Source: Brachionus manjavacas
Lineage: Eukaryota; Rotifera; Eurotatoria; Ploima; Brachionidae
DNA: 64,000 bases
Assembly (NCBI GenBank): GCA_019054805.1
Contig: JAHQIY010000001.1
Coordinates: 1,674,001 to 1,738,000 of the forward strand
Reading direction: 5' to 3'
Positions 8,590-49,661 of the stretch are shown here, piece after piece. A program made the translations under genes and the position numbers. Within the stretch, counting starts at the first letter, position 1; each line of letters starts with the position of its first letter. The notes beneath the pieces were generated by a model. The model worked only from the letters and a program-made list of their open reading frames with translations, had not been told where the DNA came from and made no database searches.

Positions 8590-10838
8590 TAAAACAAAAT
8601 GAAACGAAACTAAAACTAAAACTCAAATTTAAATTTGATTTATATGAAAAAGATAGTTATAATTTAAAAAAGTTGGATCTTAATAAGGCCGAGTGGGATA
8701 AGTTTAGAGGGCTTCTACCAAAAGAAGTCCCAAATGAAATTAAAAATAATTTAGAAAAATTTAACCAGTTTATAACGGAAAGCCTTGTTTATGCTGCGAC
8801 AAATTCAATTCCTACCTTTAAAACTAGAAATTTTAAAAAAACATTGCCATACTATATTCTGGAATTAATTGATGAAAAACATAGAGCAAAAATCGTCTTA
8901 AAAAACACAACAATCCAGAAAATAAAGCACGTTTTAACCTTTTTACAAAATTAGTTCGGGAAGAAATTGCAGCTTTTAGAGACAAAAATTGGCAAGATTT
9001 TCTCGATAAAATAAATAAGAACGTAGTTTCTTCAAAGCACTTTTGGCGAAAAGTTAATAGGAACAGGAATGATTCTAAAAAATCATCAAAGAATGGTCAA
9101 TTTCCTAAATTAACCTATGATGACAAAGAGTATAATACAGAGATGGAAAAAGTTGAGCTATTTGGTAAGCTATTGGAAGAAACATTTAAGGACAAAAACT
9201 TAAATAATTATGATAACAAACATAAGGAAAAGGTTGAAGAGGAGGTAGCTAATTATTTGACAAAGGAGAGAAGTAACGAAGCTAGATTTAAAATATCTGA
9301 GTTAGAGCAAGCAATAAACAAATTAAATATAAGTTCAGCACCAGGTCCAGATAATATCCATAATTTATACTTAATAAACTCTTCTGATGATTTTAAAAAA
9401 CTAATTCTGGACTTGTTAAATTTGTCTGCGAGAACAAATGCGTTGCCTAACGAGTGGAAAATTGCAAGAATAAGCATGATCCCCAAAAAAAAAGCAAATA
9501 GCCCAAGTCCTAAAGACTATAGACAAGTTAGTGTCACAAGTTGTTTAGGTAAATTGTCGGAAAGACTTGTCTTAAAAAGGTTACACACGTTTATTGAAGA
9601 AAATGAGCTGATAATTAAACAACAATCAGGGTTTAGGAAGCATAGACAAACTAGGGATAATTTATTTCATTTTATACAAAAAACAATTGAAACATTCGAA
9701 AGAAAAAAGAAAGTTTGTGCCATTTTTTTTGATATTCAGGCAGCATTCGACAAGGTCTGGCATAAAGTTCTTCTTTATAAAATGATCAAAATGAAGATAC
9801 CGATTGATCTTATTTTATGGTTAAGAGCATTTTTAGAAAATAGGAAATTTTTCGTTAATATTGGAAATACACAATCAAAACTTTACGATATAAAAGCAGG
9901 AGTCCCACAAGGAGCAGTGTTAAGTCCTTTACTTTTTTCGATTTATATAAATGACATACCAACTAAATATAATAAAAACAAAAGTTATTCGCTACTTTTT
10001 GCGGACGATCTAGTGTCTTATTTTATCTTTAATAAGTACAATAACATTCAAAAAATGATAAATGGTTATATTAGGAACATAGAACAGTGGCTCTCACTGT
10101 GGCGCTTAAGTATGGCAGCAGAAAAATGCAATTATATAATTTTTTCAAGTACGAAGAAAAATCTGACCAAAAAATTGAAGTTTAAAATGTTTAATAGAGA
10201 CCTAACACCTTCAGATAACATTTGTTTTTTGGGTATCAGATTCGATCATAGTTTGAGTTTCAAAAATCAGGTAGAATTTCTTAAAAAAAATTGCCAGCAG
10301 CGACTTAATTGCTTGAAAATTCTTTCGCATAAATCGTGGAAATTGTCTAAAAATACCTTAAAACAAATCTACTTTGCTCTTGTACGATCGGTTCTAGACT
10401 ATTCTTCGGTAATTTTACCAAGATTGTCTGCAACAAATCTAAAAAATTACAGAGAATTCAAAATTGTGCTATTAAGGTAATTTTTAAGCTAAATTATCGG
10501 GAAAACACTCAAAACATTCATAGAATAGCAGGCATTAAAGTTCTAGAGGATAGATATAGGGAACTAAATGAAAATTACTTAAGCGATTCGATTCAGAATA
10601 AAAATCCATTAATTAATGATTTAATAAACGAATACAAACTATTCAAAAGAGGTAGAATAAATAAACTTAAATTCGATACTTTTCTTGGTAACCTAAAAGT
10701 GTAGCAGTAAAAGAAAAAATAACTAAAAGAAACATTGCCTAATTTGTCTTATAATTTTTTTTTTTTTTTTTTTTCTTCTTCTATTTTATTTTTTTAGTTC
10801 TTTTCTTGTTTTGTAATTATAAAAAAAAAAAAAAAAAA
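8590..10838 (+). mobile_element. 5'-truncated non-LTR retrotransposon, Jockey-like
   Basis: The reverse-transcriptase half of a LINE followed by a T-rich 3' UTR and an A-run at about 10821-10838 that would be its tail. The apurinic endonuclease domain expected upstream of the RT is missing, so the copy is 5'-truncated, as is typical of target-primed insertion. I could not identify a target-site duplication in the low-complexity flanks. Confidence 0.75.
8617..10704 (+). pseudogene. non-LTR reverse transcriptase ORF with two frame slips
   Basis: Three consecutive frames make one RT: about 8617-8905 (linker), 8905-10450 (RT core) and 10445-10704 (C-terminal helical part). Visible RT blocks are SSAPGPDNIH, the QSGFRKHRQT block, FFDIQAAFDKVWHKVLL, AGVPQGAVLSPLLFSIYIND and the catalytic LLFADDL at about 9993-10013. 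This order and the C-terminal block place it in the Jockey/CR1 group. Both slips lie in A-rich runs (near 8900 and 10442), so they may be sequencing errors or true decay. The active-site FADD is intact. No RNase H domain follows. Confidence 0.8.
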
Positions 10839-12091: not shown

Positions 12092-12388
12092 AACAGTTTA
12101 CAAACAGTAAACGTTCGGAACGAACTCAAGAGAAGGAAAGAATTTTGGTGGTAGTGTAGGTTAGTTTGCTGAAGCAGCGAGTGGATTTGTGTAGACTAGG
12201 GACGCAGCGACGAGACGTCTAACAATCAAAGAAGTTGTGCAATACTGAATACACGTGTAGAAACCACATTAGGGAAATTTTATTTGGCAAATCGACTATA
12301 GATTTAGTGATTCACGTGGAGGAAAGAAATCAAAAATCCTTTTTAATCAGCGCATATAAAAAGAAAACTCTAGGAAATAGCCATTCCA

Positions 12389-14332
12389 ATGCACGAAACA
12401 TTGGAACTCCTGTCGATCATAGCAACAGCTTTGTTCGGAACACGGAGTGAAACAAAGAAAGTGGCTGAAGACGTCGTGGTACCAAAAGCGTGGTTCGAAC
12501 ACTATTTGGAGATAGTGGAAACCACGTGGACCGATTATTACGTCGGGTTCATAGCGACACTATTCAGCATCATAGTGATAAGCACGTGGTATAGAACAAG
12601 GCGTCGGAACAAAACTTTAGACGATAAGTTCAACAGAATCGACGCGAGATTCGATCAATTGATGGGAAATATCAATAATAGACCCCAAGACTTCATATGC
12701 TCAAATGTTAACACGAACAGGTTGGACATTAAAAAAGCAATGGAGACTACAAGGACATCATCCATGGAAGCAAAGAGGCAAACATCGCCGGAAATTTCAG
12801 ATAGCATATTAACAACCCAGACGTCTGATATTGGACCACCCAAAAGCTGTAGCACACCGACCACAAAACAAACAAGGGAATGGTACAATGACCATAACTG
12901 GATCGAAGGTCAACCAAAAAAAGTACTTATCGAAGAAGTGAACCCCACCGCACCGAGAGCGGACAACACTTTTGTCGACCCGAGTAGACAAGTGCGATTT
13001 AAAATACCCAACACATTGAACCAGCACAACTCCGGACAAAAGATTGAGACAATCAATCCATACCCGATATTATTTGTTTCACCACCAGACAAATTTGACC
13101 CCAAAAGAACAGACGTCAGACAGTGGATTAAAGACTTCGATATGTTCATCGAAACAAACAACATCAACTCACACAAATTGAACATTGTCATTGCACATTT
13201 GGACCATGAAACAAGAAAGATCATTGAAAACAGCCAGTTCAGTCTAAATGAAGAAACTGCTTATGCGGAATTGAAAACACTTTTAAGCCAACTCTACGGA
13301 AGAAAAACTACTCCGAATCTGGAACTTAAAAGGCAGTTCACGGATAGAGTTCAAAGTTTCCACGAAAACGTCTACCTATACGCTTCACAACTTAAAGTAA
13401 TGTCCAAACAGTCTCATTATGAACTTTTACCATATCAAAGGGACAATCTGGTGAAGGAACAGTTCATACGTGGACTAAGAGACAAATTTCTGCGCACACG
13501 ACTACAGATCATAAGAGAAGAAATGTCATTAAAAGACATTATAGAGGAGGCGGCCAGATATGAAAGAGCGGTCGAAGACGTCCAAGAAAGAACAAAAAAA
13601 GTCGATTTCGAAGAGAAAATTGAAAAACATTTTTACAAACCACAACCAACACATAATCTTCAAACAACACAACAACAAAACACGCCAGGGTCCGATCAAA
13701 TTATTTGCTACAACTGCAAACAAGAAGGACACTATAGCAAGAGTTGCCCGCAAAAACCGAAATACTCAGTAAACAACATTGAAACGACACCAATGCACGG
13801 ATTTTGCAAAATTAACAATATTGGCGTAAGATTTTTGGTAGACACAGGTTCTAAGCATTCAATTCTGAGCGCAAAAACATGTCGAAAGCTAAGATTAAAG
13901 CCACAAAAGAGCTCAATTGAACTGCATAACGCTGATGGGAATAAAATAGGAATAATCGGTCGGGCCGATGTAGACGTCAGAATAAACAATGAGTCATACA
14001 AGATTGGAATGATTATAGTTGAGAATTTAGTCAACGAAATGATTTTGGGTGTAGATGATCTAAACATATTTAGAAACCCAAGACGTCTTGTAAATGCGTT
14101 AAAACAGTGGACCTCTAGCACATTGCGTAAACTCAAACCAGGAAAATTTAGAAACCCGGCTAAAAAGCTGACCCAAATGAAGAACAAAATCGAAACTACA
14201 CAAAAGGAAACCAATGACATTTTAAAAGCAAACGATGCTTCCAAAATTACGGGAAAAATATGTAAAACAACTGCGTTAGCGGTTATAAACAAAATTCAAG
14301 AAAAAACATCTATCAAACAAGAATTTAGCTAA
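12389..14332 (+). CDS. Gypsy gag-protease polyprotein
   Basis: 647 codons. An N-terminal hydrophobic stretch (about residues 50-67) followed by RTRRRN looks like a membrane anchor, which is unusual for Gag. A capsid-like helical region follows, then a CCHC zinc knuckle (CYNCKQEGHYSKSC, about nt 13706-13748) that binds RNA, then an aspartic protease with the DTGS active site (about nt 13839-13853) and ILGVDDL. Gag packages the RNA; the protease cleaves the polyprotein. The frame ends at TAA 14330-14332, and pol continues in the same frame with no other stop. A stretch (12792-13219) is duplicated at 11007-11434. Confidence 0.9.
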   Translation: MHETLELLSIIATALFGTRSETKKVAEDVVVPKAWFEHYLEIVETTWTDYYVGFIATLFSIIVISTWYRTRRRNKTLDDKFNRIDARFDQLMGNINNRPQDFICSNVNTNRLDIKKAMETTRTSSMEAKRQTSPEISDSILTTQTSDIGPPKSCSTPTTKQTREWYNDHNWIEGQPKKVLIEEVNPTAPRADNTFVDPSRQVRFKIPNTLNQHNSGQKIETINPYPILFVSPPDKFDPKRTDVRQWIKDFDMFIETNNINSHKLNIVIAHLDHETRKIIENSQFSLNEETAYAELKTLLSQLYGRKTTPNLELKRQFTDRVQSFHENVYLYASQLKVMSKQSHYELLPYQRDNLVKEQFIRGLRDKFLRTRLQIIREEMSLKDIIEEAARYERAVEDVQERTKKVDFEEKIEKHFYKPQPTHNLQTTQQQNTPGSDQIICYNCKQEGHYSKSCPQKPKYSVNNIETTPMHGFCKINNIGVRFLVDTGSKHSILSAKTCRKLRLKPQKSSIELHNADGNKIGIIGRADVDVRINNESYKIGMIIVENLVNEMILGVDDLNIFRNPRRLVNALKQWTSSTLRKLKPGKFRNPAKKLTQMKNKIETTQKETNDILKANDASKITGKICKTTALAVINKIQEKTSIKQEFS

Positions 14333-17300
14333 GAACAACTCGAGAACGCGAGAAAAAAGATAGACTCAAGGGTTACCGAAATTTCAGCCACTAACCTGAC
14401 AGATCTTACACCAACAGACAAAACACAGCACACCATCGAAGTAACCGATAAAACACCGTTTCATATCAAAACGAGACCGGTACCATACGCCAAGAAAGAG
14501 GAATTCAAGGCATTAATCGAAGAAATGCTCGAAGCCAACCTTATCAGACGTTCAAAATCCCCTTACTCCTCACCTGTCCATCTAGTAAAAAAGCCAGAGG
14601 GCGGAATTCGCATGACAATTGATTACAGGAAATTGAACAAGAGAACGGTCAAAGACAATTACCCTCTGCCAAGAATAGACGTCACCCTGTACAGCCTTAA
14701 AAATTCAAATATTTTCTCAAAGATAGACTTTCATTCAGGGTACTTCCAAATATTTATGAATCCTGAAAGCAGACCACACACAGCATTCAGTTGCGAGTAC
14801 GGATTGTTCGAATTCAACGTCATGCCAATGGGATTAACCAATTCCGGAGCAACTTTCCAGAGGCATATGGATAATGTTTTTAAGGACTTAATTGATAAGT
14901 TCCTTATGGTCTACATCGACGACATTATTGTATATTCAGAAACAATAGAAGAACACTTCGAACACCTAAAGCAAGTATTTGATATTATAAAAGAACAAAA
15001 TTTAAAGATCAAACCGAAAAAATGCAAGTTTTTTCAAACGTCTATTGATTTCTTAGGACACACAGTTAGCAACGGTGAAATCAGACCATCAGCCGAAAAA
15101 GTAGAAGCCATTAACAACCAAAAGAAACCCGAAAACGTTGAGAACATCCAATCGTTCATCGGTATGGCTACACACTATAGAAAGTTCATCAAGGATTTCG
15201 GTAAAACCGCATGCCCTCTACATGAACTCTGCGCCAAAGACGTCCCTTTCGTCTGGAATAACGAATGCCAGGCCGCTTTCGACAAGCTAAAGGAAGCGCT
15301 TACCAATGAACCAGTCTTGACAATACCAGACTTCAAAAAGCGTTTTTATTTGGAAACAGACGCCTCGAATAAAGGAATTGGCGCCGTGCTTTCACAAATG
15401 GACTCAGAAAACAGACTAAAACCTATAGCTTATTATTCGAGAGAGTTAAATAAAGCAGAGCAGAATTACTCCACAGCTGAACGAGAGATGCTCGCCATTG
15501 TCAATGCGGTAGAACATTTTAAAGAATTCCTTTACGGTACGGAATTCACTATAATTACAGACCATCAACCGCTTAAATGGATAAACAGTGTAAAAAACCC
15601 TGCACCTCGCCTCGTCCGATGGATAATCAGACTCGAAAATTACGAGTTCGACATTGAGTACAGGCCGGGGAAAAGTAATCAAGTGGCGGATGGACTCTCG
15701 AGATGGCCAATAGACAAACTAACAGAGACGTCCCAAGACGATAAAGAAACATTCATCATAAATAATTTAATAGGAAGGAACTCGATCAACACAATAATGT
15801 TCAAAAACATAAAAGGCGATCTGAGTAACCTAAAAAGTGATGAAAACATCGAATGGGTAAAAAGGGTGATATTAGGCGAGATAATCCCGGAAAAAGATCT
15901 AAACAGCGAACAAGCCGATCTCGTTAAACAGTTGAGGTATCTGAAAGTGAGCGAGGGTCACCTATGGAAGATAGAAGAAAACGGAGGATACGCAATACCT
16001 CAATTGGTTGTTCCAAAAGCAGACCGGAAGAAAATAATGGAGCTCAACCATTCCTCTATAATGAGCGGACACTTAAAATTCGAAAAAACCATCGATAGAA
16101 TTAAGAGAAAATTTTATTGGCCTGGAATGAACAAAGACGTCTCAAAGTTCATCGAAGAGTGCACCGAGTGCCAGAAAACATCCAACACTAAAAACAAACC
16201 TCGAATACCATTAAATCCACTAAGGCCAAGTCACCCCTTAGAAATAGTGACCACCGATATCCTGGGACCGCTAAAGACCAGTAAAAACGGTTATAAATAT
16301 ATATTAGTGATTGTGGATCATTTCACAAAATGGGTTGTTCTCTTTGCTCTAAAAAGGATCGATGCCAAAACAACAGCACAATACTTATTTAGATTTATTT
16401 GTCTGTTCGGTATACCAGACGCCCTTTTATCTGACCAAGGCAAGAACTATCAAACTCAACTGGTACAAGAGCTCTGGGAGTTGTTGGACGTAAGACGTCT
16501 ACGAACCAGCCCATTCCACCCGCAATGCGATGGCTTATCCGAAAGGTTTAACAGGACTTTAAAGCGCATGATTACGTGTTTCATCAACAAGGATCACGAC
16601 AATTGGGATGAGATATTACCCTCCTTGAGTATGGCCTATAACACAGCAGTACACTCAACTACAAAATATACACCTTATGAACTCATGTTCGGAAGAAAAC
16701 CAAAATTACCAATCGACCTGGTTTACGGGGTACCAACATTGAGTCTTAAATTTGACCCGGAGAGTTTCGCACAGTCAACAAAAGATAGTTTAAGAGAGGT
16801 TTTTGGTTTAGTCCGCAAAAACAGGGATGTCAGAGTTCAAAGAAACAAATTGATCTACGATCGATATGTCATGGCAGCTAAGTTCAAAAAGGGGGACACG
16901 GTCTGGTTAAAAAACGAACAAATTAAAAAAGGCGAGTGTAAAAAGTTTATATTTAGTTGGAAAGGCCCATACATTGTTATCAAAAATATTAACAATATCA
17001 ACTATATAGTAAAACCGCTGTACAAAAACAAAGGACGTCCCATAACAGTAAACCGAGTAAGACTCAAAAAGCATTTCGGTAGCCACGACCAATCCATAAA
17101 CGAAGAAAACAAAGAAAACGTTCACACACGGGAAAAGAGAGTTGGAACTTGGCAATCGAAAAGAGCCAAAAAAATAGTAGAAAAAGCAAAGAAAACAAGG
17201 AAAAACAAATCGATCGGGAACGATCGGAAATCGAAAGAAGGTGAAAATGGAAAGGGGCTTCTGCAGCCAGAACTAGCACCTGTAATCGACCTTCAAAATC

Positions 17301-17497
17301 TGACATCGAATGGACAAACTGCCCAGGATGAGAATATCAAGGTCAAGTACAGAACTACCCAAAAGACCAAACAGAGTGAAGAAGAGAAAAAGGATCCAAC
17401 CTTTAAGAATAAAAAAAAAATAGATGACACCTTCGCACCAGATAGACCGGTAAGAAACAGGAAGAAGCCCGATTGGTTCGGGCAAAAAGAAAAATAA
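14333..17497 (+). CDS. Gypsy pol: RT, RNase H, integrase
   Basis: Open from the codon after the gag-pro TAA to 17497 (1,054 codons); the first ATG is at 14525. It must therefore be reached by readthrough of the TAA or by another route. The RT has the YIDD catalytic box (nt 14912-14923) and a typical HSGYFQI block. RNase H has ETDASNKGIGAVLSQ. The integrase has the H2C2 zinc module (about nt 16050-16170), the acidic DDE residues in TTDILG and LSDQGKN and the following glutamate in GLSERFN, and a GPY/F module (SWKGPYIVIKNI). The Lys-rich tail of about 130 residues carries REKRVGTWQSKR, a motif also found in ORF3. Confidence 0.95.
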   Translation, partial: EQLENARKKIDSRVTEISATNLTDLTPTDKTQHTIEVTDKTPFHIKTRPVPYAKKEEFKALIEEMLEANLIRRSKSPYSSPVHLVKKPEGGIRMTIDYRKLNKRTVKDNYPLPRIDVTLYSLKNSNIFSKIDFHSGYFQIFMNPESRPHTAFSCEYGLFEFNVMPMGLTNSGATFQRHMDNVFKDLIDKFLMVYIDDIIVYSETIEEHFEHLKQVFDIIKEQNLKIKPKKCKFFQTSIDFLGHTVSNGEIRPSAEKVEAINNQKKPENVENIQSFIGMATHYRKFIKDFGKTACPLHELCAKDVPFVWNNECQAAFDKLKEALTNEPVLTIPDFKKRFYLETDASNKGIGAVLSQMDSENRLKPIAYYSRELNKAEQNYSTAEREMLAIVNAVEHFKEFLYGTEFTIITDHQPLKWINSVKNPAPRLVRWIIRLENYEFDIEYRPGKSNQVADGLSRWPIDKLTETSQDDKETFIINNLIGRNSINTIMFKNIKGDLSNLKSDENIEWVKRVILGEIIPEKDLNSEQADLVKQLRYLKVSEGHLWKIEENGGYAIPQLVVPKADRKKIMELNHSSIMSGHLKFEKTIDRIKRKFYWPGMNKDVSKFIEECTECQKTSNTKNKPRIPLNPLRPSHPLEIVTTDILGPLKTSKNGYKYILVIVDHFTKWVVLFALKRIDAKTTAQYLFRFICLFGIPDALLSDQGKNYQTQLVQELWELLDVRRLRTSPFHPQCDGLSERFNRTLKRMITCFINKDHDNWDEILPSLSMAYNTAVHSTTKYTPYELMFGRKPKLPIDLVYGVPTLSLKFDPESFAQSTKDSLREVFGLVRKNRDVRVQRNKLIYDRYVMAAKFKKGDTVWLKNEQIKKGECKKFIFSWKGPYIVIKNINNINYIVKPLYKNKGRPITVNRVRLKKHFGSHDQSINEENKENVHTREKRVGTWQSKRAKKIVEKAKKTRKNKSIGNDRKSKEGENGKGLLQPELAPVIDLQNLTSNGQTAQDENIKVKYRTTQKTKQSEEEKKDPTFKNKKKIDDTFAPDRPVRNRKKPDWFGQKEK

Positions 17498-22270: not shown

Positions 22271-23164
22271 ATGGATTTGTTAGATATTTTGCTTGACAGA
22301 GAGTCGTTGATATTTTATCCTGGTGATTTAATTGTGGGAAAAATAATTATCAACCTGGGCAAAAAAGTAAAAGTAAACAAGATAAAAATCTTGCTCAATG
22401 GTATAGCCAATGTAGGCTGGCTAGAGGATAAAACTTCACGCAATGACACAAAATACATTCACGCAAACAAAAATTACATTCACCTTGATCTGATACTACT
22501 GGAAAACAAATCAATGGAGCTTGGTAGCCACAAATTTCCGTTCAGCATAAAACTACCGGACAATTTGCCGTCAAGTTTTCAAGACAATCATGGATCAATA
22601 AGCTATTCACTCAAAGCTCTGGTCGATATTCCTTGGAATTTTGAAAAAACTACAAAAAAAGATTTGACAATCTATTCTAATGTTGACTTGAATGGTTTTG
22701 TTGGTCTAACAGAACCTAAAACAGTATCTGTGCGTAGAAATTCAGGATTTGAATTTTTTGACAGTAATAATATTCGAATAACACTAACAGTTGACAAGAC
22801 TGGATTTGCTCCAGGCGAACCGGTCATTTTTACGGCCACGATTCAAAACGAAACTTCGAAAGACCTAAAACATATCAAAATGAATTTAATACAAAGTTGT
22901 AAGTTTAATATTGACAATGAGTCGAAAGAAATTCAAAAAAAAATTTCAACTATTGAATACGGAAATCGTGTCGCTAAAAAAAGTACAAAAAAGTGGCTCT
23001 GTTCAGAATGGATATTGCCTCAAACTTGTCCAAGTTCAATAGATGAATTTGATTTAGTGAAAATTAGCTATGACCTAGAGCTCAAAATGACAGCAGGGAT
23101 GTTTGCAAAGTGTAAAAAAATCAAAATTCCAATATTTATTGGTACTGTGGCTTTAAGAACTTAA
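22271..23164 (+). CDS. alpha-arrestin (arrestin-domain-containing protein), copy 2
   Basis: A single-exon protein of 297 aa with both arrestin domains: the N-domain about 1-150 with LPDNLPSSFQDNHGSISYSL, the conserved ARRDC segment, and the C-domain about 165-290. It is shorter than copy 1 and has no C-terminal PPxY motif, so recruitment of a Nedd4 ligase would need another surface. By eye the two arrestins share only scattered identity, far less than the flanking UPRT copies. It probably serves as an endocytic cargo adaptor; the specific partner is unknown. The UPRT gene ends 84 bases downstream on the other strand. Confidence 0.8.
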   Translation: MDLLDILLDRESLIFYPGDLIVGKIIINLGKKVKVNKIKILLNGIANVGWLEDKTSRNDTKYIHANKNYIHLDLILLENKSMELGSHKFPFSIKLPDNLPSSFQDNHGSISYSLKALVDIPWNFEKTTKKDLTIYSNVDLNGFVGLTEPKTVSVRRNSGFEFFDSNNIRITLTVDKTGFAPGEPVIFTATIQNETSKDLKHIKMNLIQSCKFNIDNESKEIQKKISTIEYGNRVAKKSTKKWLCSEWILPQTCPSSIDEFDLVKISYDLELKMTAGMFAKCKKIKIPIFIGTVALRT

Positions 23165-25286: not shown

Positions 25287-28245
25287 ATGTTGAATAAAAT
25301 GGCTTTGTGCTCAGTGAATATAAGAAACATTAAAGTCATTTATTATGCTGTTATATGCATTTATTTGATTACCAAACGAGTCTACTCGGCTACCGAGGAG
25401 GTGGTCGGTGGCGAAGAGAAAATCAGCGACACTTTTCAAGTGGTCAGGTTTAATTTTGAACATGTGTCGGATGTGTACGCAATTACTCTATGGATCTTGC
25501 TGGGCAGTCTTGCCAAAGTTGGTCAGTAAATTTTATTAAATTGAAAATTGAAAAAATTTTAAATAAATTATTAAAAAAGGTTTTCATTTGTCTCATAAAC
25601 TGACTGAGAAATTCCCCGAAAGTTGTCTGTTAATAATTCTAGGTCTGGTAGTGGGCACTCTGCTATACGCAACAAAACTAGCCGAACAAAAAGCCTATGT
25701 TTTAAACTCGGACACTTTTTTTCTGTTCCTCCTACCACCGATTATTTTCGAAGCCGGCTATTTTATGCCGAACAGACCTTTTTTTGACAACATTGGAACC
25801 ATTCTTGTCTTCGCCATAGCCAATACTTTTTTCAACACAATCACTATCGGTCTGACTCTGTGGGGATTCTCGTTTACGCCAATCTACGGCGGAACCGAGT
25901 TCGAAATGCTGCATTGTTTTGTATTTTCTGCTCTTATTTCAGCTGTAGATCCAGTTGCTGTTCTGGCCACATTTGTAGAAATCCATGTCAATGATATGTT
26001 GTACATAGTTGTTTTTGGTGAGTCTTTGTTAAACGACGCAGTGTCTGTCGTTCTCTATCGAATGTTTGATTCATTTGCTGACATGGCTCCTGAAAGTATC
26101 GGTGCCCTCAATATCACACTTGGTGGAGTCTCTTTTCTCTATGTGGCCTTTGGTGGTGTCTTAACCGGAATCATATTCGGAATTTTAGCTTGTTTTACCA
26201 CAAAATTTACCGAGCATACTCCAGTCCTAGAACCTCTAATTATACTCACCTACTCCTATTTATCGTATCTCACTGCCGAAATGTTTTCTACGTCAGGAAT
26301 TTTGGCGTAAATAAAATTTTTTTATTTTTTTTTATTTTATTTTATTAATGAAGATCGAATTTTTAAAAAAATTTTTATGAGAAATTAAAGTATTTTTTTT
26401 AATTTTATTAAAGAATGAAAAATACAAAATTATTATTTAAATGAAGATCAGAGTTGTTTAAAAGTCCCAAATTAAAGTCAAAGTAATTAAAATTCTTTGG
26501 CTTTTAAACAACTCTGATGAAGATAAAAATTTTATCGAAGAAGGAAAATTAATCTCTTTTCAAATTTTACCAAGAATAATTTTTTCTGAATTTTCAAGAA
26601 TAACTTTTTGTGGTATGTTCATGAAACAGTACATTGAATTTAACATTTCAAAAAAGTCCAACGCAACAATTGAATATGTGCTCAAAATGCTGGCTAGTAT
26701 TATGGAAACAATTATTTTTATGTTCATGGGTTTGAGCACCATATCGGACCATCATTCGTGGAACACTGGCTTTGTGTGTGTCACACTCATATCATGTTCA
26801 TTTTACCGAATAATCGGAGTGTTGATTTTTGCTAACATAGCTAATAGATGGAGGCTGCTTGAGCTCAAGTTGACTGACATGTTAATAATGAGCTACGGAG
26901 GCATACGCGGAGCGGTGGCGTTTGCCTTGGCTCTTATTTTGGACGAGAGTAAAATACCGCGCAAAAAAGAATTTGTTACTGCCACAATAGCAGTTGTGTT
27001 TTTTACTGTGTTTGTTCAGGGCACTACCATTGGACCTATTGTCAAGTATTTTAAAATAAAGCGCAAAGAGATAGAAGAGCCTACAATGAGCGCGAAATTG
27101 ACCAATCGACTTATTGACCACATCATGAGCTGTCTGGAGGACATTGCTGGTGTGAATGGAAAACACTCGCTCAGAGATAAAATAAGAAATTTCGACCGAT
27201 TTTACATCAAGCCATTTTTGTTGAGGGAAAAATTTTTGTCGCGTGATGAAAAATTGCTCAGCACTTTCAAGAAAATAACTGAGTCCAACTTTAACAAAAT
27301 GGCCGAAAATCCTGAACTTTTGTTCCAGTCCACTCAGTCAATGGCTCAGCTTAATTCATTTGTAAACAATAGAAATGTGTCTATGGGCAATCTCATTTCG
27401 AATGGGTTAGTTTAATTAATTAAAAATTTTTTTTATTGATTTTTCAATTTTTTATTTCATTTTTTAAAATTACATTGAATGATTAAAAGCAAATTTTTTT
27501 ATTGATTATTAGATTTTTTTTTAATTTTTTAAACAAATTTTAGAATTCCGGAGATAGCGACTGTGCCCGATTTTCAAGTTTTAGATGCAGTGGCTTCTAA
27601 ACGAGTGACTGAAGATGCCCAGTATCATCACTTGTTGGACAACGCCATGTATGATGTAAGAAGAACACAAAAAATTCACAAGAGATCTCAGTTGGACGAA
27701 GAAGACAACCCATATGAGAGGAGTAGACGAGCAGTAAGGAAATATGGCATAGCGACACTGCATCACCAAAAGCCGGTCAATCTACGCAGCATGATTGAGA
27801 CAGACCGAAAGTCGCTTGGTGGTAAAAAGAGAAGCCAATCGAATTTTGGTCAAACATCAAAATCAAGCTCTGGTGAGCGAACTAGCAGAGCCAAGACAAA
27901 ATCAGCTGAGCCTCGACCTAGCAACGATCAGAACAAGGAGAAGAAATTTTTTATAGTTACTGATGACAATAGTGATAGCGCAAAAATGACAAGAACTAAT
28001 GCACCTGCTTCGCCTGATAACAATATACCACCACCATGGAAAAATGCGGTATTTAATTTCTTTTTAATTATACTACTTGAAAAATTGTTAATTTTTATTC
28101 CAAGGGATCAAGTGATGACGAGCCTGTTAAAGCTGGAATGCCTACTTGGGCAAATAATCCTGATTATACTTTACATGCTACCACTAGCAAACCAGAGGAT
28201 AATAAGCGAACAAATTTATTCGAAATTTTCAAGCAACAAAAATAG
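25287..28245 (+). CDS. Na+/H+ exchanger, NHE (SLC9A) family
   Basis: Five exons: 25287-25521, 25580-26306, 26599-27405, 27544-28048 and 28105-28245. Phases agree, giving 804 aa. An N-terminal hydrophobic signal precedes the transport domain of about 12 membrane helices. Family signatures seen are FLFLLPPIIFEAGYFMP (the amiloride-sensitive segment), ALISAVDPVAVLATF, VFGESLLNDAVSVVLY with the ion-binding ND pair, FIFMFMGLS-type and YGGIRGAVAFAL. The long hydrophilic C-tail (about residues 440-804) is the cytosolic regulatory region. It resembles the plasma-membrane NHE group (NHE3/nhx-2-like) that exports protons for sodium. Exon 5 is inferred from phase and an in-frame stop. ATG 25299 is an alternative start. 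Confidence 0.88.
26449..26516. mobile_element. 68-bp hAT micro-element (MITE) in NHE intron 2
   Basis: Terminal inverted repeats of 16 bp, CAGAGTTGTTTAAAAG / CTTTTAAACAACTCTG, start with the CAG typical of hAT ends. They are flanked by an exact 8-bp duplication ATGAAGAT (26441-26448 and 26517-26524). There is almost nothing between the TIRs. As RNA it would fold into a microRNA-precursor-like hairpin. Confidence 0.85.
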
Positions 28246-40731: not shown

Positions 40732-43700
40732 CTAAAAAGTTGATTCATTAATTTCTTTTCTTAATAAAAAATCTGTCTGACCATGATCTAAAGCTCGTTT
40801 GTCCTTAAGCACAAAAGCACCTGGATCCACATTCGCTTCTTTGTCTGTACCTGGCTTTTTCAATGAATTCTTTCTCGATTTCCTTTGTCGACTGTGTGAC
40901 GGAGATTTCGAATAAGCTTTTCTTAAACCTATTTCGGTATGAACTGACGTTTTGGACGATGCTCTCTTAACTTGATTTTTCACTTCAGGCATGTGCTGAA
41001 TTTCATTGCGAGTCAAACTTTGGCTCTTAACCATTTTGTTCGGATTAAACTGTTCCAATACATAAACTAGATCGGTTTGAATTAGTTTGAAATCAGCGCT
41101 AGGGTTGCATATTACATATCTCTTGTTGCTTGGTGTGGGAATTTTTTGTGATCCCACTTCGGCATCACGAAATCGGTAAACACCCCAACATATCATATTA
41201 TGCTTTGTCAAACAATAAACAAACAGTTCACCGTACAAGCGATTTTCGCCATATTTGGCAAACTCGCCGTCAAAAAGAGATATTTGAGATACTCTTGGTC
41301 GATTGCGATTTTGGAATGTGTCTCGAATGTCGCCAGGTGCAATATTTGCTCCTTCGGCCAAAATTTGCTCCAATTCTGGCGTAGTTCCGCCTGTGATCAA
41401 TGTCCGTATGAGCGTCAATGCATTGTCGTTGAAATAGGCTGTGCTCATAATACAATCAAGAACACTTATGGCAAATGCTGTGCCACAGGCAAATGGTTGC
41501 GACATGTAAAGCTCTTTGTTCGGGTCGTCTTCATCATCTTGGTCCAAAAACTGAACATTGGAATCAACTCCTTTGAAATAAAAAAAAAAACAAATAAAAT
41601 TAAAAAAAAAAAACAATTTATCTAAATTTTATTTTTTTTAAATTAAGAGAAAAAATTACTTAATTCAGTTAGCATTGGAATGTTGAGGCCAATTGATGTC
41701 TTCCAATTTTGTCCTGGATTTAAAGAAGAGCCCAAAGTGGGCGACAATATTTGATCCATTTCGCCAATTAGTCCAGTTGAATCATCGAAATTCATAGCCT
41801 TGATATTCAATGAGCACAAAATTGCCGACTTGTCAATAAGGTTTTCGTCCTGGGCGTCTCTGTCAATGCTGGATAAAACAACGGCCATGTCACAAAATTG
41901 AATATTGACCGATCTGAGCAGCGATCGACTGTTCGGCGAGCCCGGCAGGATATAAACCTTTGGAAAGTTGCCCAAAGCTTTCCATTCTTTGAACAAAAAC
42001 TCTTTGTTTCCGATGAAAACAATTTTTTTCAATTCGGAATAGTGCAAATTGCTGGCTCGTAGTGGCAGTACAAAACTGCGCAGACCTATTAGGGGAGAAT
42101 TGGGCTCGGCAAATACACACACTATTACATGTCCGATAAATGACGAATGCTTGGTGCTGTTATCCAACAAGCAGTCGTTGAATTTCTGCTCCTCAGTCCA
42201 ATGGAACATTCCAGTTGAGTCAAACTTTTCGTCAGTATTCACGAAATCAATCTTCAATTGCGGTTCTTGTTCACAAATTATTAATTCCTCTTTAGGTCTA
42301 AAAAAATTAATGAGTGAAATTTTGAAAATTTTTTTTTTTGTCATTTTTTTACATTTCGAGGACCAAATCTTCCTCGGCACTGAATGATTTTTTTTTCATT
42401 CGTCCAACAGTCTTACCAAGCAGGCTCTTGACTAAAATTTAAAGTTTTAGCTTAGAAAAAAAATTTAAGAAAAGACAAGAAAATACAATCCACCATAAAA
42501 ACTAATAGAGATAAAACAAATTTACAAAATTTACCTAGGACACTGCGTAAATTTTTTTTTAAACTTTTAAGCTCTGATTTTTGTTTATTAAATTAAAAAT
42601 TGCTTATTAAATTATTCTAAATTAATACCTTGATTACATCTACACTGTTTGATTTTATTTAAATCGATCACATGTTTGTGACAGTATTCGCAGTAGAAAA
42701 AGGCGCGTTTTATTTCTTCGAATGAACCAGCTATGAAAAATCCCCTAGTACCGGCTTCAACTCGGACTGTATTGCCCGGATTTATGGACAGATGAGAGCC
42801 AATTCCGGACTCATTGCTAGACTCAATTGCCAACAATAATAATTTTAATTTTGTAAAGCAAATTCTAAATCAAAGCAAAATTAATAAAGATTCATATTTT
42901 ATAAAATTAATTACATTGCCGCATCGGTAAATGTCTTTCCGGTGAATGCAGGTGATAAGTATTCTGTATACATTTCCATAGACGATCCTCTCAAATAATG
43001 TGGTAGCCATGGATCTTTATACGCTTTCTTGAAAAATAATTATTTTTACTATATATTTATTATTTATTCAATAACGATATTTAATAGTTAATTTAAATGT
43101 TTTTGTTTGAAATTTTTAATCTTAATTTAAAATATTATGAAAAAAATTTATATTTAATTAATATAAAAATTTTTGTTTGATTTTAGATCTATTAAATGGT
43201 TATTTCAATGAAAATTTCTAAAAATCATGATTTAATTTTGTTTTCCTTTTTGAAAAAATTAATAAATAATTTATCAAAAATTAAAAACAATCAGTGCCTT
43301 AATTGTTATTTTTTTTGTTAAAGTATCAAAAAAAGTATCATAATCAGTATAAAATTTATTATTTTTGGAATATTTTTGATAAAAATTTTACAATAATACA
43401 TGTATTAATGATTTGATAAAATTTTAACTTCTAAAAACTTATTTTAAATAAAAGATTAAAGTTTATTTATCCCGTTTTGCGCGATATTTAAGCGATCAAA
43501 AATTGTTATTGAAAAGATTAAAAGTTAAACAAGAGACTCTTTTAGTCCAATGTTAATTTTGTTCACCAAGCCCCTTATTTTTTTTAATAAGAGATTTTTC
43601 TAGAAATTTTTTTAGTTTAGAATAAAATAAATCATTTCCCCAAAGCTGTTAGTTTAGTAATTTTAATTTATTTTTATTACTTTATATAAAGAGATAGCTC

Positions 43701-46700
43701 CGTCGTTGAATACCTATTTGGGCATATGAAATACAACATTTAACATTTAGAATAAAAAAGATTCAATTACTTCTTTGTAAGAACGCATTGCGAATAAATT
43801 AGCCATAAGTGAAGAGAAACCAGGCGCTAGACACGACTGAGCCATGAGACCAAGCTTTAGCTCAGCTATGCATACAGCTTCGTCGCCTTGCTTCCAGTCC
43901 CAACTTGGAATATTCAACAAATACATCTTATTAATTAAAAATTAAATTCTTAAATTTTTTTTAATTTAGATTTTGTTTAGTTTTACTTTATTATGGTATT
44001 GAAGTAGCTGGATAATTATTTTTACCGAAGGAAAAAAATTCTTTATAGATATTACTCTCATTATATTTGCCTCGTCTTCGCTATCGGGCGACAACGATTC
44101 TTTATTTGCCAAAATTAGAACAGCATCGGCTTGTTTTATCTTTATACATTTTTTTATTTTTTATTTTTTTATTTTGTTATTTAATAAAAGGTAAGTAAAG
44201 AAAAAAATTTCTCCATTAAGGAATTTTGTTGGTCATAATTACTTTAGCCCGTTCCAAATCAATAGGATTCATAACACTTCCTTGCAAAAATTTAACTTGA
44301 GTAAATTTTTTTTTAAACAAAGACTCCAAGTCCAGATCGGGCAGAGCGCTTTGAAAAAAAAAATGGTTAATTAAGAAAAGAACATTTATTAAAAATAAAA
44401 AAGCAGAGAGAATTAATAGCAAAAACAGAACTCTTTTAGCTTAGGATCATGGACACAATAGGGCTGGCCATTGTACGCACTCAATCGAATAGTTTGTCCA
44501 TTGAATTCAAATTTTTTATTTCTAAAGCGTAGCTTTGTCTCGAACCATGCATCGCCTGGCTCCAAAATATAAACTATTCGATAAATTGACTTTTCTTTTA
44601 AATAAACTTTTTTAATTTGAACCAATTTCTCAAATTTAAATTCTCTACATTTAGATCGAAGTCCTGTGGTCTTCGAGTTAACATGGTCCAAGAGAATTTG
44701 GACCAGCGCTTTAAATCCAAAGCCAGTCTCTGAACTAAAGTTGGCCTCGTTTAGCTCATGATTTTTCAAACAAGGACACAAGTCTGCAGGTATATAAGCC
44801 TGGTCACATGATCTGTCTTTGACAATTTGTTCAAAAAGAGAAGTGCCACGTCTAATCCTGTCCTCAATTGAGTTTGTTCTAAATTCTTGATCATGGCCTG
44901 ATGTAGTTCCATTCTTGTTAAGGTACAAAAATTGCCTTAGTGTTTGAAAAAGATCAAAAAAGGAGACCAATTTGTTTGTGTTTTGTTTCATGTTGTCAAA
45001 GTATTTAGTCCGGGTCATTTTAGTGGGCACTCTAATGCTTAAGAATGGCGAATGCTTTTCGAACCGGCCCATTTCGGTTGCGTATGAGTAGAACTTAAGT
45101 CGATTTCCGTGGTCGGAAAAAAGCACCAGCAAAGTATCATCTAGATCAAGTTGAGACAAAAAGTTGCGCAAATCTTGGTCCATGTTGGACGGCACAGCAA
45201 AATAGTTGTGCGTATACTCAGTCATGAAATTGAAGCTAAAGTAGGCACTTTTTGTTGAGCTTTTTTTCATTGCTGCCAAAAAGTCGCTGATCATGTCAAA
45301 CCAAGTAAAATAGGTTGGATAGCCAAAATGGCATTTGTCAGGCCCAGAACGGGTCTCGTAATACTTGAGCCAAAATGGTCGACCGTACAAATCGGTGGGC
45401 CACTGTCCAAAGCCTTTTTTCAAGTAGTTAAAAATGCCTATGTCCGGATCGTCCTCTTGAAACATGGTCACATATCCATTTTTTTCATAGTCATGCCACA
45501 AAAAAGGAATGCTGTCAAAAAAATCGTTCTCCTTATACTGGTCAATGTCTTTATTTAGCTGGTCATTTATGTGAGCGTCAATTAGACCGGAGAGCATGGC
45601 TAGCACATTGGGAAAAGTGTTGCGACCAAGTGAATTAAAATGGTTGAATATTAAATTGTGTTCAAGGTGAGACAAATATTGAAAAGTGAGCGGAAATATG
45701 CGCCTGAAGTGATTAGCTGACACCGAGTCAATTCCAATTATCAGAACATTCATTTTAGCCGCTTTGCTTGCACTCAAACCTGGCAAATCGTGCACTGAAC
45801 CTTGTTTGGGAGTGGTAAACTTTTGCCGCTCTCTTACCAGCACACTCATGTCACTCGGATACACTGTTATAACTTGGTCGAATATTTTGGAGTATTTTTG
45901 GGCCGCACTTTGGCAAATGACATAATAAAATCCGTGAGTTTTAACTTGAATTTTATTTGTGCTGAATGAATAAACCTGGTCGACAATTTGGGTCTCTTGG
46001 TCCTCTTCGGACACGTCCATTTTTTTGTCGAATCTGTACGCATTGCATCTAATATCGTTCACCTTTGTGTCACTCAATTTAGATAGACGATCAAAATTTA
46101 ATTCTATCACATTTTTCTCAATTTTAATAGCTTTTTTAAAGCTAAAATTAGCTGCACATGAGTCGAATATTTTTTGCAGCGATTGACGATCCGAGTCCAA
46201 ATATTGCTCGGCAAGTTTGGATCGTGTGTTGACGTGATCGGCCAAAAAGCACTTGGAATTATTGGACTTGGAGCTCAGCTCCAAAAATTCATTGTCATCT
46301 TCGGTTGTTATTTTGGCCCTGTAGTGATCAACAAAGTCTTGTATTATGTAGATTAATTTGTTCAATTTGACTCGTATGTGCTTGGGTCTATGGACGGCTA
46401 TGATGTTTACAAGGCCTATAGTCATTATCATGCCAAGGAAATATTTGTATTGAAGTCTCATTTTTTTCTATTTTTTAAACCGTTTTTTTTTTGTTTTTTT
46501 TTTAAAGCTAGAATGTTATCTCTAATAAAATTTTGGGTTTAATGAGATTATTTAATTGAGATTAGTCATAAATGTTAATGGGCCTTTATCTCTGCTTTTT
46601 TTATTTTTAAATTGATTTTAGATAAAATATCAAATGCTTTACTTGTTCATGAAAACAACTTCGATGTCGAATATTTCGCGGTCTTTGTGCAGGAATTCCT

Positions 46701-49661
46701 TGAGAAAATTGGACACAGTCAAGTATGTGATATGACCGCATACAAAAACGTGTCTTTAGTAAAAAAAATAAGTCGACATTTTATTTCATCAAAAGTAAAA
46801 AAATAAAAAGAAGAAATTATATCTCATTTTATTTCTACTTATTTGAAAATTTACCTTTTTCCTTTTTCCACTTTATAAGCGCCGGCATATTTAGGCCGAT
46901 TGCCGATTATTTGTGCAAGTTCTGGAATAGCACTAGCAAAAACTGCCTTTATTAAAAAATAATTTTTTCTTATTTAATTCATTAACTTTTAGCAAAGACA
47001 AAAGGCTCACAAGTCCACCGATTATAAAAAACAACATAAACAATCTACCAAGCACAGTTCTGGCTTAGACAATTAGATAAATCTCAAGCAGTTGTGAATG
47101 ACAAAAATTTTAACACATTACCTACAAGTCACGTCGCCATATCCCACAGTAGACATAGTTCTTAAATATTTGAATTTTTAAACGCACAACTAGCAAACAA
47201 AAATGGCACGATTTTATTTTTAATTTAAAAAGTCAATTTTTGAGAAACCCCCTACAAGAGAACCGAAAAAAAATGGTTAAAAAATAAAGTTATGTTTCGC
47301 TTATTTTTTTTTACAACAATTTACATAAAACATTCTCTAAAGTATGAAATCATAAGTTTACCAGATTGTAGGTAAATTGCTTTCCAAAAAATTTTTGGAG
47401 TCTTAATTGAGAAAAATCTGATTCATAAAATAAATCAAAACAAATTTATTAATATATTAATTAATTAACTCACTTCAAAAGACACTAAAGCTCTTTAATT
47501 TTTTGGATATTTTTAATTTTTTACTTTTGGAAATTCTGGAAATTTTGTAACATTTTATGCAAAAAGTTTGTTGCATTGTGTTGCATTTGTGGAACTAGTT
47601 TTTTACCTTTAAAAATTTAAGGTTCAACTAACTATTTTTTTCTATTTCTAAAACTCGTTCTGCAAAATTTAGTAGAAAATACAAAATTTGTGTTCAAGAG
47701 ATTTCTATCTACAATTTAATGCTCAAATGCCTGACTTGGTTACCCACAACTCCAAAGACTTCTTTGCAATAATCGCTTTGGAAATTTTTTATTTTCGCAT
47801 TATTTGCAATGACAAAATGTTTCAAGAGTTTGAACAACAGTTTATTAGAAAATTGAATCTCAGTAAGTCTCTACGATTTATTTCCTGAATAAAATTCAAA
47901 TTAAATTGTAGATTCAATTTAAAGATTTAATTTGGGTGATTCAAGAATTTTGTGAGCTGATACATTTTGCAGAACGAGTTTTAGATCTGAGCCAAAAAGT
48001 TATTTCAATTTTAAATTTTTCTCTTGTACCAAAATTCGCATTGCTAAAATCGTGCCAAATTGTATTAATAAAAATGTGACTAACACGATTAGCAAGTATA
48101 TACAATCTAGATGGGTAAGCGGTTGACTAGTAGCGCTTGTATAGTCGCTAGTATTTTCCACCTTAACACATTTAACATTTAGATAAACATTTAACAACAT
48201 TAAAAAGACAAAGAGAAGTTGAAACATGTGACTTACAATGCCACAAAATAGTAATAGTACCACTGATACTTTTCCTAAAGTGGTACGACAATACACGTCT
48301 CCATAGCCTACCTGGGATAGAAAAAAAAAACAAGTGAGAAAGAGTGGTTGCGCAATTGAGTCTAAATACCGTTGACATGGTCACTACTATAAAGTAAATG
48401 CTGTCAAAGTAGCTTAGGCGAAGATTTTTCTGAAGAGTTTTTTGATTAATGTGAGAACTTTGAACCTCAAAAGCAAAATCGGAAATATTCCGACTCGCAT
48501 TCACATAATCTAGATCCGAATTTTCAACCTAAATAAAATAGTCTTAAAACTTCTCTTTTATTTAGAATAACTTTAAGTAAATGGAATTTAGTGAAATTTT
48601 TTTGTTGTTTCCTGGCCATTTAAATAAAACCAAACTTAAAGTTAAACTGCTTAATTCAATTGATTTTAATTTAATTTACTAAATGAACAAAACCGGCCGC
48701 AGTCAGCCAAATTGAGAGGAACATGACAAAAAGTTGGGTCAGTCGGATCGAATTGCTAGTCTTGAGTAAATTTAAGTATTGTAAAATATCCGGAATGTTC
48801 ATTAGGCGGAGGACACGCAAAAATCTCAGACCTATCCAATTACGGTCCAAATAGATGCTAACAAATGATGGTGGTATGGTAAAATAGTCCACTATCGAAT
48901 ATATATCTAGCCAAAACCATAATTTATCTTGAGCAGCCACGAACTTTTGACAAATTTTTGATTAGATTATATTCCTATTTTTTTTTACTTCAATTGAAAA
49001 TTTACTCTTATAAAAAAGTAGAGCATAAAAAATAAATTGAAGCCCAGATCAATTTGTTGTGACACTGATTCTTTCCACTTTTGACAAGTCTCAATTGGTC
49101 TTAAATTAGAAATAGAATAAAGCCGTAGACAAAGTTCAATTGTAAGTTCAATCTCTTACGATGTACTAGCATCAAAAAAGTAGATAACTAGTGAGCCAAC
49201 ACTTAGAATGGACACCAATATCATCTGTTTGAAAGTTAATTTTTTTTTAAATAAATAATTGAAGAAAATTTTTTTTTTTTTTTATTTTGTTACCAAAATC
49301 CGGCCTGATATGGACTGAGCCGAGATGAGCTCGCCACAAAAGTCTCTGGCTGCCGTCACCCAACCTATCTCCGTGTCATTATTCACCAAAGAAATGACTA
49401 CATCACTGTTATCTGTTTTCAAAATCTAATAAGAAATTAATTATGATTTAGATTTTAATTTTGATTTTAATTTACCCTTTTGCGAATTTTTTTGAAAAAT
49501 TTTCCAAAGAATAAAAATGTCAAAAAACGCCACACAAAAATGATCAACAGCCCGCCAAAAAATGTTATCAACGAAGACATGAGGAAAACATACCAATACC
49601 GACGACCAATGCATTCCGGATCCAAATTGCTATTGTCCAAGCTTGTCGATGTCTGGCCCAT
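40732..49661 (-). CDS. slo: Slo1 (BK) large-conductance Ca2+-activated K+ channel
   Basis: Core exons: 49661-49476, 49425-49294, 49224-49160, 49099-49006, 48943-48680, [pore cassette], 46946-46855, 46753-46643, 44348-44243, 44139-43987, 43926-43771, 43027-42915, 42864-42629, 42431-42353, 42297-41660 and about 41570-40732. With cassette A the product is 1,165 aa, with cassette B 1,142. Visible parts are S0 ([18 protein letters not shown]), S1, S4 ([18 protein letters not shown]), filter VGYGD, RCK1 ([19 protein letters not shown]), RCK2 ([18 protein letters not shown]) and a calcium bowl ([10 protein letters not shown]). S0 and the calcium bowl separate Slo1 from Slo2. The channel opens to voltage and calcium and dampens excitability and transmitter release. 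The 44349-46642 intron holds a whole gene. The last acceptor is uncertain by 3 bases. Confidence 0.93.
44413..46461 (-). CDS. DUF229 (alkaline-phosphatase/sulfatase fold) membrane protein, nested in a slo intron
   Basis: A 682-aa intronless protein. One N-terminal membrane segment (about 8-23) suggests a type II or signal-anchored protein facing outside the cytosol. The DUF229 domain (about 230-540) has [17 protein letters not shown] (Asp245), the [13 protein letters not shown] block, TEYTHN at 414-419 and FSDHGNR at 448-454, the metal-site motifs of the alkaline-phosphatase superfamily. A C-terminal Cys-containing region follows. The substrate of this family is unknown. The whole ORF lies inside the slo intron 46642-44349 on the same strand, ending only about 65 bases before the slo acceptor. 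The lack of introns in an intron-rich neighbourhood fits a retrocopy origin, but I see no A-tail or flanking repeat. Confidence 0.88.
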   Translation of the reverse strand: MRLQYKYFLGMIMTIGLVNIIAVHRPKHIRVKLNKLIYIIQDFVDHYRAKITTEDDNEFLELSSKSNNSKCFLADHVNTRSKLAEQYLDSDRQSLQKIFDSCAANFSFKKAIKIEKNVIELNFDRLSKLSDTKVNDIRCNAYRFDKKMDVSEEDQETQIVDQVYSFSTNKIQVKTHGFYYVICQSAAQKYSKIFDQVITVYPSDMSVLVRERQKFTTPKQGSVHDLPGLSASKAAKMNVLIIGIDSVSANHFRRIFPLTFQYLSHLEHNLIFNHFNSLGRNTFPNVLAMLSGLIDAHINDQLNKDIDQYKENDFFDSIPFLWHDYEKNGYVTMFQEDDPDIGIFNYLKKGFGQWPTDLYGRPFWLKYYETRSGPDKCHFGYPTYFTWFDMISDFLAAMKKSSTKSAYFSFNFMTEYTHNYFAVPSNMDQDLRNFLSQLDLDDTLLVLFSDHGNRLKFYSYATEMGRFEKHSPFLSIRVPTKMTRTKYFDNMKQNTNKLVSFFDLFQTLRQFLYLNKNGTTSGHDQEFRTNSIEDRIRRGTSLFEQIVKDRSCDQAYIPADLCPCLKNHELNEANFSSETGFGFKALVQILLDHVNSKTTGLRSKCREFKFEKLVQIKKVYLKEKSIYRIVYILEPGDAWFETKLRFRNKKFEFNGQTIRLSAYNGQPYCVHDPKLKEFCFCY
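47011..48161 (-). other. slo: slo pore cassette B (exons 6B, 7B1, 7B2)
   Basis: Exon 6B (48161-48085) encodes a short turret [15 protein letters not shown] and pore helix CIYLLI. Exon 7B1 (47160-47126) encodes [11 protein letters not shown]. Exon 7B2 (47063-47011) encodes S6 as [17 protein letters not shown]. Donors are GTTAGT, GTAGGT and GTGAGC; acceptors are TTAAG, TTAAG and CTAAG. The three exons total 165 nt, are internally phase-consistent, and enter and leave in phase 0. Its S6 is closer to other animal Slo1 channels than that of cassette A. Confidence 0.8.
47647..47985. mobile_element. inverted-repeat element with an exon-like ORF, in the 6B-7B1 intron
   Basis: A perfect 22-bp inverted repeat (47647-47668 and 47964-47985; core CTAAAACTCGTTCTGCAAAA) bounds 339 bp. 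The interior has a plus-strand open frame (about 47685-47888) of coding-like composition that runs into a consensus GTAAGT donor at about 47863. I see no clear target duplication. It may be a small TIR transposon that captured an exon, or a structured intron element. Confidence 0.5.
48237..48528 (-). other. slo: slo pore cassette A (exons 6A and 7A)
   Basis: Exon 6A (48528-48370, 53 codons) encodes a long turret from [14 protein letters not shown] and the pore helix ending TMST. Exon 7A (48311-48237, 25 codons) starts with the filter VGYGDVYC and encodes S6 as [15 protein letters not shown]. Donors are GTATTT and GTAAGT; acceptors are TTTAG and CCCAG. Both ends are phase 0, so the cassette joins exon 5 (ends 48680) and exon 8 (starts 46946) in frame. 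Confidence 0.85.

Follow-up and report, generated by a model that had tools for sequence, protein, structure and literature searches.

Two predicted alternative pore cassettes in the BK channel gene slo1 of the rotifer Brachionus manjavacas

Can a single gene supply a BK channel with two different pores? The question is raised by slo1, the gene for the BK channel alpha subunit, in the rotifer Brachionus manjavacas, where an original prediction made from the DNA letters had placed two interchangeable pore cassettes side by side. We analysed the gene within a window of 64,000 nucleotides (nt) from genome assembly GCA_019054805.1 (contig JAHQIY010000001.1, positions 1,674,001 to 1,738,000 of the forward strand); coordinates below are those of the window unless a contig is named. 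The window holds one intact slo1 gene on its minus strand, delimited from start codon to stop (40732-49661) by a gene model and Pfam matches. Between S5 and the lower part of S6 this gene contains two in-frame pore-S6 cassettes in tandem, A and B, and either one alone completes a Slo1 protein. We consider it likely that they are alternatives, and that splicing leads from shared exon E5 through one cassette to shared exon E8, giving two BK alpha subunits.

The two cassettes cover the same part of the protein. Both are open, lie in phase 0 at each end, have GT-AG borders and run from the first turret residue to S6 position 312, each carrying the TVGYGD selectivity filter (residues are numbered as in human Slo1, for which we take the aspartate of GYGD to be 292). 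Upstream of them is E5 (48680-48943), which ends in S5 and is identical in Brachionus calyciflorus at 84 of 88 residues; downstream is E8 (46855-46946; 28 of 31 residues identical), which supplies the lower half of S6 and the linker to RCK1. These exons and those of the cassettes are all read from the minus strand. Cassette A consists of 234 nt (78 codons) in two exons. The first, A1 (48370-48528, 159 nt), is an open frame with GT-AG borders, conserved in the B. calyciflorus BK model (protein P0001), and encodes a long turret (sequons NAS and NIS), the pore helix and TMST; the second, A2 (48237-48311, 75 nt), encodes the VGYGD filter, Tyr294 and the upper half of S6. Cassette B consists of 165 nt (55 codons) in three exons: B1 (48085-48161, 77 nt) encodes a short turret and the pore helix and ends in a weak donor (gttagt), B2 follows, and B3 encodes the upper half of S6 and also has a weak donor (gtgagc). 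The positions, phases, borders and codon counts of the two sets had been given in the original prediction, and all were recovered here. No third cassette was seen among the minus-strand open frames of at least 30 codons between E5 and E8, a length below which an exon could escape.

One border was revised. The limits of B1 and the outer ends of B2 and B3 agree with the original prediction, and its B2/B3 junction at 47126/47063 is possible, but we prefer 47122/47059 (B2 at 47122-47160, B3 at 47011-47059) because residue 295 then fits the conservation of the Slo1 family. The first junction gives VGYGDVTSRT, with Ser at position 295, and the shifted one leaves length and frame unchanged and puts Cys there. 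Of 244 other Slo1 segments, 242 have Ala or Cys at this position and none has Ser. These segments come from a set of 247 proteins, from which P0002 and P0121 were dropped for lack of a filter match and P0001 was compared apart; the 244 comprise 38 distinct sequences, many being isoforms of one gene or from close species, so that the counts are not independent. Splice scores pull both ways, the shifted donor scoring 4.7 against 0.2 and the shifted acceptor -0.2 against 5.4, and the shifted junction is thus probable rather than certain.

The gene around the cassettes is an ordinary slo1. Its model has 20 exons with GT-AG introns, and isoforms A and B, of 1165 and 1142 amino acids (aa) with a 33-nt microexon left uncounted, contain no internal stops. 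Pfam Ion_trans, Ion_trans_2, Slo-like_RCK and BK_channel_a scored above cut-off in both isoforms when their N-terminal 531 and 508 aa, respectively, were given, and the last slo1 exon matched Slowpoke_C. Isoform B aligned to the solved Slo1 channel 7rjt with 1287 bits; solved Slo1 channels were aligned over residues 19-625 and from 671 onwards, and the human Slo1 structure 8s3e over 17-1075. A calcium bowl is present in RCK2, aligned to the solved Slo1 sequences. A stretch made up of cassette A and the shared sequence on either side likewise found Slo1 chains, at E 5e-28, and because both isoform B and this stretch align with such chains we dismiss a chance origin of the cassettes. The closest proteins, the best two of 120 listed, were P0001 of B. 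calyciflorus, 71% identical over 68% of the query, and P0002 of B. plicatilis, 92% identical over 65%. No second close slo1 locus was found in the genome of 114.17 Mb and 61 contigs: seven of 10 matches fall inside slo1 and the other three are 28-38% identical. A distant relative lies outside the window on contig C1 (G000), at about 10587068-10587735, where a match to the pore of ion channels is accompanied by one to the RCK region that is 28% identical to slo1; it is perhaps a Slo2-type gene.

How far do the two pores differ? Differences in turret and S6 had been pointed out in the original prediction and are present in the sequence. A stricter pattern for turret length matched 228 of the 247 proteins and gave 27-28 residues before TMST in 227 of them, the odd one being P0001 with 57; cassette B has 26 and cassette A 49. 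The A turret contains two N-X-S/T sequons (NAS, NIS) and the B turret one (NTS). In B. calyciflorus the A turret, otherwise divergent in sequence, has three (NVT, NIT, NHS). Among 243 other turrets found by pattern, 14 have a single sequon and the remaining 229 lack any.

In the pore and S6 each cassette lacks residues that the other keeps. Cassette A is without the S6 residues Phe303 (Phe in 244 of 244 segments) and Phe307 (239 of 244). B is without Tyr274, which 243 of the segments have, and carries Thr at 294, where 219 have Tyr and 5 have Thr; Trp275, found in 243 of 244, is missing from both. Twenty positions, many of them in the filter itself, are conserved in at least 97% of the segments. 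Cassette B keeps 18 of these, B. calyciflorus A 15 and A 14. Across the 41 pore-S6 residues B aligns to other Slo1 proteins without a gap, and looks like an ordinary Slo1 pore. The Cys at 310 of cassette A is unremarkable, the position being variable (Gly in 125, Val in 91 and Ile in 20 of 244). Tyr294 has a role in block by tetraethylammonium. It is also a reported contact of the scorpion peptide martentoxin (PMC12894229). A separate observation concerns E8, which just after S6, at position 324, encodes Gln, whereas 243 of 244 other Slo1 segments have Glu or Asp there; as E8 is shared, both isoforms would lack an acidic residue of the inner mouth.

The original prediction had looked to related species for the age of the duplication, and B. 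calyciflorus provides an answer. Model P0001 joins cassette A straight to E8 (...GFVHL-VENSDF..., with the same exons on either side). Of the 41 residues of pore and S6, A has 38 in common with B. calyciflorus A and 20 with B (21 with the shifted junction), which argues that the cassettes diverged before the two species did; on this comparison we place the A-B duplication before the split of the B. plicatilis type from B. calyciflorus. The nucleotides of A and B are identical at 74 of 123 sites in this stretch. Their synonymous distance is beyond computing by NG86, which gave -1, as at saturation, and among the 21 residues that they share the codon is the same in only 6. Intron positions inside A and B differ, a further sign of age. 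Mutually exclusive exons are recognised as tandem homologous exons of compatible phase, and the pair has this form. In a FastTree of the 41 residues the two A cassettes grouped together (0.977), and the placement of B was weak (with Owenia, 0.691).

We take cassette A to be real by its conservation in the gene model of a second species, which also strengthens the reading of the cassettes as interchangeable, in our view as in the original prediction the best one. Cassette B, open through three exons, with near-canonical residues and a turret close to the family norm in length, is probably real as well. Its retention of 18 of the 20 near-invariant positions, together with 26 residues before TMST, suggests that B was probably under selection long after the duplication. 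Beyond P0001, cassette A alone as query gave 8 hits among 52 candidates, the next after P0001 being 55% identical over 54%. A protein with both cassettes gave 5994 hits at E up to 10, and the best of the 120 listed were vertebrate Slo1 proteins, 60-62% identical over 49% of the region; no rotifer was among those of the 120 that bore a name (a few did not), all of them 0.55-1.75 times the query in length, a range that excludes P0001. Exon E5 found no rotifer relatives in collections of genome contigs and viral contigs.

From the sequence we infer that both cassettes are expressed, that they exclude one another and that they differ in function. E5 would be joined to A or to B, and the chosen cassette to E8. 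The two resulting subunits would share the voltage sensor, the lower S6 and the calcium-sensing ring and differ in the outer mouth and upper S6, and, BK being a tetramer, mixed channels would be possible. Cassette A would be the easier path, two of the B donors being unusually weak: B1 and B3 score -0.2 and -2.5, below all 14 shared slo1 donors (leave-one-out scores 1.3 to 9.2), on a crude score for which those 14 are the only reference. The B acceptors fall within the range of the shared acceptors, and the B2 donor is normal with the shifted junction. Cassette B would need an activator; its weak donors are as compatible with regulation by one as with failure of the cassette. The reading frame is lost in A1+B2+B3, A1+B3, A1+A2+B3, A1+A2+B2+B3 and B1 alone, and every other partial B set shifts it too by exon length (77, 35/39 and 53/49 nt). 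Because such hybrids break the frame, use of whole cassettes is favoured and partial use of B is self-limiting; its products would be discarded through the frame-breaking B exons.

Several observations weigh against alternative use. A1 alone, A2 alone, A1+B1+B2+B3 and the full A+B form (1220 aa, open) all remain in frame, and the A2-B1 intron, at 75 nt, is of ordinary size, 15 of 20 slo1 introns measuring 50-103 nt. With such an intron, and with cassette lengths that are multiples of three, the anatomy does not forbid double inclusion; since neither crowding between A2 and B1 nor frame prevents it, some active control would have to keep B1 out when A is used. Competing pairing between introns was not significant among the six pairs formed by four short introns, the long B1-B2 intron being left out: by RNA duplex energies the best pair, E5-A1 with A2-B1, was equalled by 17 of 200 dinucleotide shuffles. 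The evidence from B. calyciflorus is an imperfect gene prediction, which fuses slo1 with a nested gene and omits B. The weak B donors and the repeat in the B intron could also fit a failing cassette. That intron, B1-B2, is 924 nt long and holds an inverted-repeat element (47611-48048, minus strand) with many matches elsewhere in the genome and a second repeat (47404-47514), which has relatives elsewhere in the genome and fewer matches than the first.

These points bear most directly on the idea that only A is used and that B is the old canonical cassette, silent and decaying in this lineage. We consider this unlikely. The two weak donors out of three, the long intron with its insertion and the omission of B from the B. 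calyciflorus model are all in its favour, but a dead cassette would be expected to show a stop or a frameshift, and B is open over three exons despite a synonymous divergence from A that looks saturated. B also retains more of the near-invariant Slo1 residues than A does.

Somewhat less probable again is that B, or A and B together, serves regulation, partial or double inclusion giving non-productive messages and so less channel. The frameshifts caused by B1 alone and by any partial B set accord with this, and from the short A2-B1 intron, by size alone, joining of A2 to B1 would be expected. Full double inclusion is open, however, and would not trigger decay, and a poison exon has no need of the conserved filter and S6 of B. 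Retention of the A2-B1 intron, which is an open frame, was also considered and is not proposed.

The open A+B model could instead be translated into one protein with two pore loops in series, which we hold to be very improbable. Judging by the Slo1 fold, A ends midway through S6 and B begins at the extracellular turret with no helix to lead the chain back; a second extracellular turret directly after half an S6 should not be accommodated, and in the B. calyciflorus model E8 follows directly on A. As double inclusion would repeat the pore without a helix returning the chain to the outside, alternative use is the sensible reading. An assembly error that placed two alleles, or a fragment of a paralogue, side by side, a known way for near-repeats to arise but one for which we found nothing in favour, can be discounted almost entirely, as can allele collapse or a second slo1 locus, since A and B are too different in nucleotides and intron positions for alleles and the genome search found no other close slo1.

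What would alternative use of A and B mean for the channel? In the fuller picture, to which we give about an even chance, Brachionus would use splicing to switch the entire pore mouth of BK together with its upper gate. Cassette A would provide Tyr294, an S6 without Phe303 and Phe307 and a long turret that is probably glycosylated, and cassette B a short turret, Thr294 and a standard S6; the two would differ in block from outside, in gating and perhaps in conductance, mixed tetramers would grade these properties from cell to cell, and the pair would predate the split of the B. plicatilis type from B. calyciflorus. BK channels are otherwise strikingly uniform from the filter to the middle of S6, and it is exactly there that this natural second pore departs, while gene and sensors stay the same. 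The pair would thus be a ready-made experiment on the role of Phe303, Phe307 and the turret. If the picture is true, one gene makes two kinds of BK pore, and it is the pore, not the sensor, that is diversified in an animal whose genome has one slo1 gene.

Other features accompany the cassettes in the window. The microexon of slo1 (33 nt, 43681-43713, minus strand) has counterparts in the models of B. plicatilis (VFNDGATSLYK) and B. calyciflorus (VFAAGANILYK), and could itself be alternative. Inside the 2294-nt slo1 intron E9-E10, on the same minus strand, lies a single-exon DUF229/sulfatase-like gene (44413-46461; PF02995, E 2.1e-90). Because PF02995 is joined to slo1 at the corresponding point in P0001, this nesting appears to be conserved in the genus. 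Further away are a pair of open frames of long terminal repeat (LTR) retrotransposon type (12374-17497, plus strand), with a gag-type zinc knuckle and aspartyl protease and with reverse transcriptase, RNase H and integrase, in a stretch of marked AT skew (0.275-0.297); an apparently separate retroelement, a 531-aa open frame with RVT_1 (8885-10480, plus strand); two arrestin-domain open frames (1629-2690 and 22271-23164); and a sodium/hydrogen exchanger (25567-27415).

How does the arrangement compare with known systems? In K2P channels both pores are in one chain, with complete helices between them. The slo1 cassettes are similar in that two pore loops are encoded close together, but have no intervening helix. 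The genome contains 60 Ion_trans_2 matches, and in at least 10 close pairs the two members lie in open frames of equal length, as expected of K2P (for example C4:6339176 and 6339485, each in a frame of 387 aa). Neighbouring matches in different frames, at C5:4924297-4925860 and C14:169735-170524, may include a second case of tandem pore exons. In the shaker gene of the spiny lobster the pore region is reportedly spliced, by the title of a 1997 paper cited in PMC2727049. There too the pore region of a K+ channel would be swapped, but lobster shaker is a Kv1 channel, whereas here the channel is Slo1 and a two-exon cassette is exchanged for a three-exon one that includes half of S6. Within slo1 itself, Soom et al. 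2008 in their title call the mammalian exons 9 and 9alt mutually exclusive. This alternative lies at the S6-RCK1 linker of KCNMA1 (PMC11758846, PMC7371421) and alters gating (PMC11758846). The original prediction had located known Slo1 splicing in the cytosolic tail, which stands with the caveat of this linker exon. Mammals and Brachionus alike have an alternative exon at the S6 end of slo1, but the Brachionus linker, in E8, is shared and it is the turret, pore helix, filter and upper S6 that are swapped. Exon 9/9alt and the lobster pore are the nearest precedents. A broader parallel is the Drosophila Cav2 gene cacophony, whose mutually exclusive exon pairs draw channel diversity from a single gene (PMC11828482), in that case of a calcium channel. 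In the open-licence literature, covered for part of the matches and mostly by titles and abstract openings, we found neither a slo1 pore swap nor work on rotifer BK. The proposed swap of the whole pore mouth and upper S6 in BK is well supported as a reading of the gene, and would be a new case of duplicated alternative cassettes, itself a known kind.

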